DNA of 13,731 nt from an uncultured beta proteobacterium (GTDB taxonomy: Bacteria > Pseudomonadota > Gammaproteobacteria > Burkholderiales > Burkholderiaceae_C). A model generated the notes under the pieces. The model was not told the origin of the DNA. It saw nothing but the letters and a program-made list of their open reading frames with translations, and did no database searches. The stretch covers positions 1-13,731 of the forward strand of contig CAJBVC010000688.1 in assembly GCA_903958915.1 (NCBI GenBank), given 5' to 3'. Shown piece by piece: positions 1-3,491 of this stretch (its first letter is position 1; each line of letters starts with the position of its first letter). Made by a program: the position numbers and the translations under genes.

Positions 1-789
<789 letters not shown>

Positions 790-845
790 CTATGAATTTG
801 GTAGCTGGTTACGCTTGCTGTACGGGCGTTAGAGGGGTGTTTCCT
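790..845 (+). repeat. Comamonadaceae-style intergenic repeat with small hairpin
   Basis: The sequence directly after the parE stop contains TAGCTGGTTACGCTTGCTG and then ACGGGCGTTAGAGG. From memory, this wording (tagctg, cgcttgctg, acgggcg, tagagg) resembles a short repeat scattered between genes in Acidovorax, Rhodoferax and related genomes. I cannot confirm this by search. As RNA it can fold as ACGCTTG (811-817) paired with CGGGCGT (823-829), with two G-U pairs and a five-base loop. No T-tract follows, so a simple terminator is unlikely. The outer limits are approximate. Confidence 0.45.
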
Positions 846-866
846 ATGTGTCCTTGGTGGCGGATC

Positions 867-938
867 GGCTGCCGGGGTATCGGCAATCGCCTCATGGTGG
901 GGTACCACAAATCGGCTATTGCCGATACCCCAGCAGCC
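867..938 (+). repeat. Hairpin repeat unit A: conserved core in a 14-bp perfect stem
   Basis: GGGGTATCGGCAAT (874-887) is perfectly complementary to ATTGCCGATACCCC (918-931). After one mismatch (873/932) the stem continues outward for six pairs, GGCTGC (867-872) with GCAGCC (933-938). Inside, after another mismatch, GCC (889-891) pairs with GGC (914-916). The loop carries the core CCTCATGGTGGGGTACCA (890-907), which itself holds a mini-hairpin TGGT/ACCA (895-898 and 904-907). The same core recurs inverted in unit B at 1029-1046. A competing small hairpin is ATCGGC (911-916) with GCCGAT (921-926). No protein is convincingly encoded here. The unit lies about 77 bases after the parE stop. Confidence 0.85.
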
Positions 939-952
939 TCCGACCGTAGAAC

Positions 953-976
953 GCAAATGATCTGGAATTTCATTGC
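953..976 (+). repeat. Small hairpin between repeat units A and B
   Basis: GCAA (953-956) pairs with TTGC (973-976), and TGA (958-960) with TCA (970-972). One A is bulged and the loop is nine bases. It sits in the spacer separating the two larger hairpin units. It is a short imperfect structure that could arise by chance; it is listed because the rest of the spacer is also palindromic. Confidence 0.3.
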
Positions 977-995
977 TTGGGCGTACCAAAGTATC

Positions 996-1071
996 GCGAT
1001 GTCGAGGGTTGGGTCGGCTGACGATTTTTGGTACCCCACCATGAGGAAGCTGCCCCAACCCTCGACATCGC
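996..1071 (-). repeat. Hairpin repeat unit B: same core inverted, unrelated 18-bp perfect stem
   Basis: GCGATGTCGAGGGTTGGG (996-1013) is perfectly complementary to CCCAACCCTCGACATCGC (1054-1071). After one mismatch (1014/1053) five more pairs can form: CGGCT (1015-1019) with AGCTG (1048-1052), one of them G-U. The loop contains TGGTACCCCACCATGAGG (1029-1046), the exact reverse complement of the unit A core. Counting the flanking AAATCG, the match between 890-914 and 1022-1046 is 24 of 25 bases. The stem shares no clear sequence with the unit A stem. The unit ends 38 bases before the parC start codon. No T-tract follows it. Confidence 0.85.
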
Positions 1072-1109
1072 AGCGCATACAGACAAGCCACACGAAAATT
1101 TGACAACCA

Positions 1110-3491
1110 ATGACCGACCAACCCTTACTTGACTATGCCAAACCGGAGGGCGGTGGCGACGACCAGCTCAATCTGGCGACATACGCCCAGCGCGCCTACC
1201 TCGAATACGCCTTGAGCGTTGTGAAAGGCCGCGCGTTGCCTGACGTGTGCGATGGCCAGAAACCGGTGCAGCGGCGCATTCTGTACTCGATGGCCCGCAT
1301 GGGACTCGGGTTTGGCGGGGCCAACGGCAACACCGGTGCGCGGCCTGTCAAAAGTGCCCGTGTGGTGGGCGATGTGCTAGGGCGCTTTCATCCCCATGGG
1401 GACCAGGCGGCGTACGACGCGCTGGTGCGTATGGCGCAGGACTTTTCGCAACGCTACCCGTTGATCGATGGCCAGGGCAATTTCGGCTCGCGTGATGGCG
1501 ATGGTGCGGCCGCGATGCGCTACACCGAGGCACGGCTGGCCAAGATCACCAGTTTGCTGCTCGATGAGATCGACCAGGGAACGGTGGATTTCCAGCCCAA
1601 CTACGATGGCTCCACGGAAGAACCCAAGCAGTTGCCAGCGCGGTTACCGTTTGCCCTGCTCAATGGTGCCAGTGGCATTGCAGTGGGCCTGGCAACCGAA
1701 ATTCCCAGCCACAACCTGCGTGAAATTGCCGACGCCTGTGTGGCACTGATCAAGACGCCGGCGCTGGATGATGATGCATTGGCTGCGCTGGTGCCGGGAC
1801 CAGACTATCCCGGTGGCGGCCAGATCATTAGCAGCGCAGCGGACATCGCAGACGCCTACCGTACCGGACGGGGCTCGCTGAAAGTGCGAGCCCGCTGGAA
1901 GATTGAAGAACTTGCACGTGGGCAGTGGCAACTGGTCGTAACCGAATTGCCGCCGGGTGTGAGCAACCAGCGGGTGCTCGAAGAGATTGAGGAGTTGACC
2001 AATCCGAAGGTCAAAGCCGGCAAGAAGGCGTTGACGCAGGACCAGACCCAGCTCAAGGCCAGCGTGCTCGCGGTGCTTGACGTGGTGCGCGATGAGTCCA
2101 ACAAAGATGCCGCCGTGCGGCTGGTGTTTGAGCCCAAGACCAGCCGCATCGAGCAGCAGGAACTCATTACCGCGTTATTGGCGCATACCAGTCTGGAAAC
2201 GTCGTCGCCCATCAACCTTACGATGATCGGTCTTGACGGACGTCCCACCCAGAAGTCGTTTCGGCAAATGCTGCAGGAGTGGATTGCGTTTCGCCAGGGA
2301 ACCATCGAGCGGCGTTCGCGCCACCGTCTGGGCAAAGTGCTGGACCGCATTCATATTCTGGAAGGTCGGCAACTCGTCTTGCTCAATATTGACGAGGTGA
2401 TTGCCATCATCCGTCAATCCGATGAGCCCAAGTCAGCGTTGATGGAGCGGTTTCGCCTGTCCGACCGCCAGGCCGAGGACATTCTCGAAATCCGGTTGCG
2501 CCAGTTGGCACGACTAGAGGCGATCAAGATCGAGCAGGAACTGACCGAACTGCGCACCGAGCAGGGAAAACTCGAGGAGATTTTGGGCAGCCCCGCTGCG
2601 CTGCGCCGCTTGATGGTGAAAGAGATTGAGGCAGACGCCAAAACCTTTGCCGACCCGCGACGCACCCTGATTCAGGCAGAAAAGAAGGCGGTGCTGGAAG
2701 TGAAGGTGGTCGACGAGCCGGTCACCGTGGTCGTCAGCCAGAAGGGCTGGGTGCGTGCCCGTACGGGACACGGCCACGAGGCTGCTGGGTTTGCCTTTAA
2801 AGCGGGCGATGCACTGTACGGAACGTTTGAGTGCCGCAGTGTGGATACCCTGCTGGTGTTTGGTTCCAATGGCCGGGTCTATTCAGTCGCTGTCAGCTTG
2901 CTGCCTGGTGGGCGTGGTGACGGTCAGCCCGTCACCACGTTGATCGACCTGGAGAGTGGTACCCAGTTGCTGTACTACTTTGCAGGCCCGGCCAACGCCA
3001 CTTTGCTGTTGAGCGGAACGGGGGGTTATGGCTTTGTGGCGACGGTGGACAACATGGTCTCGCGCCAGAAGGCTGGCAAGGCATTTGTTACCTGCAACGA
3101 CGGTGAGACCTTGTGTGGCCCGTCGCTGGTGTCCGGCGCGCACGGCAGGGTAGTGACGGCAGGGACCCCAGCGTTGCCGGTTGCACCGGCGACGCATGTG
3201 GCCTGCGCGTCGATTGGTGGACGAATCCTCACTTTCGACATGACGGAACTCAAGGCAATGGCCAATGGCGGACGTGGCTTGATGCTGATTGATCTTGAGC
3301 CGAAGGATGCGCTCGCCGGTGCGGCCGCCTATACCCGCAGTGTGCGTATAGAGGGTATCGGGCGCGGCGGCAAGGAGCGTGAGGAAACGCTGGAAATTCG
3401 CAGCTTGAACAACGCACGTTCTGCACGGGCGCGCAAGGGCAAAGCAGCTGACCTGGGCTTCAAGCCTGCCCGCATTACCCGTGTCGAGTGA
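1110..3491 (+). CDS. parC: DNA topoisomerase IV subunit A
   Basis: This 793-residue protein is the DNA-cleaving subunit of topoisomerase IV, partner of the upstream ParE. The N-terminal breakage-reunion domain shows [15 protein letters not shown] and the helix motif [13 protein letters not shown]. The catalytic Tyr138 lies in [10 protein letters not shown] and forms the covalent link to [23 protein letters not shown] and a coiled-coil region around residues 420-510 follow. The C-terminal beta-pinwheel begins near residue 541 with [14 protein letters not shown]. Length is slightly above E. coli ParC (752). At the position of E. coli Ser80 there is Gln99, and at Glu84 there is Asp103, in the quinolone-target helix. 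The ATG at 1110 fits family alignment, but no good Shine-Dalgarno sequence precedes it; the bases before it are TTGACAACCA. The stop overlaps the next start (GTGA), suggesting translational coupling with mdlA. Confidence 0.97.

Follow-up and report, generated by a model that had tools for sequence, protein, structure and literature searches.

A dispersed family of paired hairpins with a conserved tip, drifting stems and strand-specific pairing

Introduction

The Rickettsia palindromic elements are repeats that have entered protein-coding genes without breaking the reading frame. The hairpin family described here also occurs in frame within genes (genomes G264, G217 and G189), but it differs from the Rickettsia elements in host group and in sequence, and to our knowledge neither its tip motif, nor its strand bias, nor its paired arrangement is a feature of those elements. 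In a Polaromonas genome (G064) the family forms an element of ~240 bp whose ends appear inverted, which recalls a MITE; no related transposon was found. The family also resembles the REP, BIME and REPIN sequences in consisting of short dispersed palindromes, mainly intergenic, that form inverted doublets separated by a spacer and reach up to tens of copies. According to passages of one account (PMC3733652), REPs bear GTAG or CGTC as a tag at the hairpin foot and have stems of 5–13 bp, whereas in the present family the foot is free, the outer stems are ~20–31 bp long and the fixed motif lies at the tip. Integron attC sites, as described in passages of PMC3053210, are hairpins read on one strand by structure, through unpaired bases. 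The present family likewise seems to be recognized from the shape of a single strand, but its hairpins lack conserved core sites at the foot (0.22 bits at most, 170 units), and no integrase or cassette array was noticed. Of the systems compared here, REP/REPIN and attC come closest.

Bacterial repeat families are normally recognized by their sequence, so that elements defined by structure only are missed. A literature search, largely confined to journals open without subscription, found no published account of this paired-hairpin family.

Results

Two hairpins with inverted cores in the parE–parC gap

The window, that is, the whole 13,731-nt stretch of DNA analyzed, begins with the 3′ part of an open frame that we take to be parE from its C-terminal motif and its position beside parC; the frame that follows is presumably parC, judged by its motifs. 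The gap between them contains two hairpins, units A and B (Table 1). The original prediction had placed two hairpins with an inverted shared core here, and the cores (890–914 and the reverse complement of 1022–1046) are indeed identical at 24 of 25 bases (96%). The stems, which it had described as perfect over 14 and 18 bp, extend further than that. Each unit has arms of 24 positions, 22 of which form Watson-Crick pairs (92% complementarity in unit B). According to the RNA folds, the two remaining positions are a U-G wobble and an A/G mismatch on the − strand of unit A, and a G-U wobble and a U/C mismatch on the + strand of unit B. The arm sequences of the two units are unlike each other. The GA opposite GA beside the tip of unit B may be a tandem G/A mismatch.

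Table 1. Features of the parE–parC region of the window (R1, covariance model built from 48 units)
Feature	Position	Strand	Basis
parE, presumed, 3′ part (upstream neighbor)	1..789	+	Open reading frame
Unit A hairpin	867..938	− (putative functional strand)	R1 match 871–934, −, E = 3.3e-14; RNA fold
Unit A 3′ arm of functional strand	867..890	−	Stem pairing
Unit A conserved tip, CGATTT – inner hairpin – CATGAG	891..914	−	Alignment, covariation
Unit A 5′ arm of functional strand	915..938	−	Stem pairing
Spacer between paired units	939..995	.	57 bp; range 27–191 bp over 44 pairs
Unit B hairpin	996..1071	+ (putative functional strand)	R1 match 1002–1065, +, E = 6.7e-13; RNA fold
Unit B 5′ arm	996..1019	+	Stem pairing
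GA opposite GA 1046–1047 beside unit B tip	1020..1021	+	Read from sequence; putative geometry
Unit B conserved tip, CGATTT – inner hairpin – CATGAG	1022..1045	+	Alignment, covariation
Unit B 3′ arm	1048..1071	+	Stem pairing
parC, presumed (downstream neighbor)	1110..3491	+	Open frame; N-terminus relatives in 30/30 genomes

A second dispersed repeat (CTATGAATTTGGTAGCTGGTTACGCTTG...) lies at 789–835 of the window. It matches numerous other places in the genome over part of its length and is also found, in varied form, 3′ of parE in two congeners (G125 and G287).

The hairpins belong to a dispersed family

The core occurs once more in the genome of origin, with one mismatch and enclosed by an unrelated 28-position stem. 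With up to three mismatches allowed, 26 of the 299 genomes searched from the same family contained the core pattern, and a control pattern gave no match among those listed. A scan of species genomes returned at least 118 stretches with the core pattern; the matches listed came from Rhodoferax, Limnohabitans, Polaromonas, Curvibacter and unspecified Comamonadaceae, Burkholderiales and Betaproteobacteria, and four stretches (L097, L113, L133 and L192) labelled as other phyla are probably mis-binned contigs. The original prediction had suggested searching for further copies in this genome and in related Burkholderiales and asking whether their flanks were self-complementary yet different between copies; such copies were found. 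A core-only pattern, applied to the window, L009 and L096–L213, gave 165 matches, 160 of which were enclosed by an outer stem (score ≥10), a score reached at 11 of 3000 random places; one of the five matches without an outer stem was interrupted by a contig end. Searching for core and stem together yielded 177 units, and none in reversed sequences.

Trained on 48 diverse units, the covariance model R1 detected 13 units in the genome of origin, every one with E ≤ 2.6e-5. Under stricter filters, R1 found units in 60 of the 299 genomes sampled from the same family, representing 39 of 141 genera, and in only five of 349 genomes drawn from the order, all five of them members of that family. In G064, 62 units were identified when 150 of 1250 candidates were scored, and in most copies the flanks did not align past the element ends, showing that the copies are dispersed. 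Viral contigs searched with one core pattern returned no stretch, and a phage origin was rejected on this ground.

The tip is fixed and the stems covary

On the strand that we call readable, a unit is laid out as 5′ arm – (GA) – CGATTT – inner hairpin – YATGAG – (GA) – 3′ arm. Fourteen columns were invariant across 48 units, every one of them in the tip. The loop core had been predicted to be conserved as a whole; its flanks CTCAT and AAATCG are fixed, but the inner hairpin between them varies, with CTGG/CCAG, GTGG/CCAC or CGG/CCG around a short loop and, within the genome of origin, quite different forms such as GTGCTCGCAC and GTGCGCATTTGGCAC. The two pairs next to the tip, GA opposite GA, were often unpaired (27 and 20 of 48 units).

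The covariation analysis that the original prediction had called for bore out selection for structure around a recognized tip. In the 48-unit alignment, double-sided changes were present in 23 of 25 pairs, which belong to the outer stems and the inner hairpin. Paired cells amounted to 93.1%, compared with a shuffle mean of 57.8%, and none of 500 shuffles was as high; when partners were slid by 1 to 3 columns, paired cells fell to 33–48%.

Stem mismatches favor the folding of one strand

Counted on the readable strand, the stem mismatches of 174 distinct units comprised 184 G·T, 18 A·C, 47 G·A and 7 C·T. The bias was alike in paired and single units and in units facing either way, and the G064 elements had 38 wobbles on the readable strand versus 2 on the other. 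Because paired units are oppositely directed, a replication or transcription bias of one chromosome strand would cancel out. The most economical interpretation is selection for the folding of one defined strand, and strand-biased wobble pairs would thereby reveal which strand must fold.

The RNA folds favor the readable strand in both units of the window (unit A, −54.9 kcal/mol on the − strand versus −52.2 on the +; unit B, −49.6 kcal/mol on the + strand versus −44.4 on the −). With DNA parameters, the readable strand is preferred in unit A (−31.7 versus −28.8 kcal/mol), and unit B shows no such preference (−25.9 versus −26.1 kcal/mol). It is conceivable, if rather doubtful, that the units are RNA elements, whose readable strand would be transcribed and whose tip would be recognized by an RNA-binding protein or nuclease, the inverted pair serving transcripts of either direction. 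RNA would account well for the tolerated wobbles and for the tandem G/A pattern, and the RNA folds above agree with it. At odds with this possibility, searches against Rfam gave no match at the gathering score in 11 loci and, in window positions 600–1400, four matches that were all far below it. A known Rfam family was rejected on the same results.

Units pair with a single handedness

Inverted pairs had been expected to be the rule, and this is what we observed. Among neighbors less than 400 bp apart (window and L096–L213), 45 of 49 were arranged −/+, three ++, one −− and none +/−; the exceptions seen came from loci such as L115, L184, L201 and L205, in which the second unit has extra copies in tandem. 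A neighbor within 400 bp was present for 94 of 176 units and absent for 82, of which 33 lay inside a GGGGTCAGA...TCTGACCCC inverted repeat. In G064, the 62 units comprised 29 pairs, all −/+, and three of the four unpaired units were at a contig end.

Gene context was obtained with a simple heuristic gene caller and is given as raw counts, without a background rate. The 44 pairs were located between tandem genes in 18 cases, convergent genes in 11 and divergent genes in 7, with 7 at edges and 1 in a long frame, and the corresponding figures for 87 single units were 36, 24, 8, 11 and 8. By this gene caller the copies are mainly intergenic, as predicted, although some lie inside long frames. Many units are 3′ of genes (35 of 104 placed units between convergent ones, again as raw counts from heuristic genes), which would suit an RNA element; such an element is harder to reconcile with the single units between tandem genes, whose readable strand coincided with the gene strand in 16 cases and was opposite in 20.

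Relation to REP sequences and Y1 transposases

A REP or REPIN variant, whose hairpins would owe their movement to the Y1 (RAYT-type) transposase present in single copy in these genomes, appears improbable. The inverted doublets match those of REPINs (45 of 49 neighbors −/+), and Y1_Tnp genes are present in 24 of 26 genomes with the core pattern. In addition, GGGGTCAGA...TCTGACCCC inverted repeats enclose 34 of 177 units (for example in L108, L122 and L147), and this repeat adjoins a Y1_Tnp gene in two of 16 loci examined (L231 and L232). However, 23 of 26 genomes lacking the pattern also have Y1_Tnp genes, although some of these genomes carry variant units, and none of the 30 Y1_Tnp loci retrieved contains a unit. 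The nearby Y1/REP transposase that, in the original prediction, would have supported mobility was not found in these loci. The stem length does not match the 5–13 bp of REPs and REPINs. At the hairpin foot, the highest information over 18 positions on each side was 0.22 bits in 170 units, and no tag like the GTAG or CGTC of REPs, as given in passages of PMC3733652, was found there. Because the foot is untagged and the Y1 loci contain no unit, we do not assign the family to REP/REPIN, although it may work in a related way.

Stems drift while the tip stays

We followed the evolution of the element in 21 G064 copies, which were picked by core pattern in 30 loci and therefore favor intact cores. 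Two lines of stems, alpha and beta, can be told apart, each with at least two Watson-Crick types in 15 of 23 column pairs. The mean pairwise difference was 25% in the arms, 27% in the spacers and 1.8% in the cores, and between nearest neighbors it was 17.8%, 14.5% and 1.2%, respectively; the core values are lower bounds because the copies were chosen by core pattern. A whole-element search of G064 found one further place (37 bp) without a unit when 40 of 50 candidates were scored, which limits this selection bias without removing it. The stem differences indicate inheritance of the stems, with drift limited by the need to pair. The stems of units A and B had been called unrelated, and their sequences are unlike, but the "unrelated" stems of the family are old relatives. 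The accompanying argument that shared descent preserves stem sequence does not hold, since related copies, within one genome and at orthologous positions, differ by compensatory stem changes.

Eight records, judged to represent one site by shared neighbor frames in overlapping sets and by alignable flanks, allowed a comparison in place. The 11 tip-flank columns differed by 2.3% (unit A) and 0.0% (unit B), compared with 10–20% in the arms, 22–26% in the inner hairpins, 33% in the spacer and 34% in the surroundings. This contrast implies that the copies are under selection in place, or that change is very slow at the tip only.

Template switching, in which a polymerase repeatedly copies one arm onto the other and no structural selection is needed, is very improbable as the sole cause, although it may contribute. 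It homogenizes arms and inverts spacers, according to passages of PMC8604942, and the spacer was in fact seen by eye in either orientation relative to the stems among G064 copies (for example L298 and L302) and matched its nearest neighbor in inverted form in 3 of 21 cases. Yet the 184:18 strand bias among mismatches, seen in units of both orientations, is not predicted by template switching, and it is on this ground that we disfavor it. Neither the single handedness of the pairs nor the constancy of the tips, beside spacers of the same age that differ by 27%, is predicted by it.

Presence and absence of the element could be seen at the parE–parC position itself. Units are present there in the window, L137, L213, L160 and L202, and the gap, 320 bp long in the window, measures 64 and 67 bp, with no unit, in congeners G125 and G287. 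In L160 (5480–7440) and L202, a restriction-modification island near parE–parC splits one unit at the tip; in L160 it encodes a DNA methylase (PF01555) and a BglII-type endonuclease (PF09195). The flanking repeats suggest that the island was inserted with a long target duplication, and for this reason site-specific recombination at the tip was set aside. We consider the identity and the evolution of the family, as real, widespread, strand-specific and structure-coded paired hairpins, to be well supported, with little room for doubt.

Units within UvrA-type genes

Some units are located within open frames, namely of 2143 aa in G264 (4 units), 2205 aa in G217 (5 units) and 2055 aa in G189 (2 units). 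UvrA domains were found in the long frames of G264 and G217, and similar long frames with one or more units exist in G125 and in the genome of origin. The in-frame units of L350, L351, L352, L356, L247, L249, L250 and L254 lie within such UvrA-type frames and encode peptides such as GSSYGGGTPKSSP and GDDFGVPPPYEEP. Since the units of G264 and G217, spaced by ~1.7 kb, are inside one UvrA-type gene, cassette arrays were rejected as an explanation. In the unpaired units in the UvrA-type frames of G264, G217, G189 and G125, the readable strand is antisense to the gene, which speaks against RNA elements; these units may be orthologous and hence not independent.

How the hairpins may be read

We see about an even chance that this is a dispersed two-hairpin element in which one strand of each hairpin is read, in folded form, by a trans-acting factor at the tip. 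The two hairpins of the window would then be one copy. The putative factor would read each hairpin as a folded single strand, on one strand only, and would recognize the helix interruption CGATTT/YATGAG between the outer stem and the small inner hairpin, pairing being the only requirement on the stems. The spreading unit would be the head-to-head pair with its spacer, presumably moved by transposition, and after insertion selection on tip and pairing would retain the copies. With the units in opposite orientations, one readable hairpin would be available on either strand of the locus, whichever becomes single. Against this explanation stand the 82 of 176 units that have no partner within 400 bp and the lack of a clear target-site duplication: the mean longest direct repeat in element flanks was 4.0, versus 3.70 in 300 shuffles, one of which was as high. 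The ends CTACG...CGTAC were present in most of the 21 aligned G064 copies and were not seen family-wide (170 units).

As to what is read, the balance between the readings is about even. We lean somewhat toward folded single-stranded DNA rather than RNA, since the units seem free to take either orientation with respect to genes (16 same, 20 opposite); the antisense orientation in the UvrA-type frames was counted in the same direction. On the other side, G·T tolerance fits RNA equally well and the DNA fold of unit B has no strand preference. Tentatively, and with more doubt than for the general scheme, we propose a structure-coded element: a strand-specific folded DNA hairpin that would need, as its sole sequence feature, a non-canonical interruption of the helix at the tip. 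Such hairpins would always be arranged as head-to-head pairs, with one site for each DNA strand, would be read by a putative host factor and would be kept across species, even in a DNA-repair gene. With single-stranded DNA as the target, the family would join integron attC as a second example of recognition through the shape of a single strand; with RNA as the target, it would be a widespread unlisted RNA motif of Comamonadaceae. The collected tips specify a target for binding with which a factor could be fished out.

Open frames near the units

Open frames between units ~1 kb or more apart (L108, L122, L129, L147, L160 and L188) included no transposase-like frame by eye, and two frames of L160 were also put through a family search; an autonomous element was rejected on the basis of the inspection by eye. 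Clustering of 411 frames near units gave clusters of at most seven loci, with no transposase seen by eye among the cluster leaders listed, and a recurrent neighbor gene was likewise rejected. In L188 (3017–4120), two units ~1.1 kb apart flank a 120-aa frame that, by eye, resembles a BrnA-type antitoxin.
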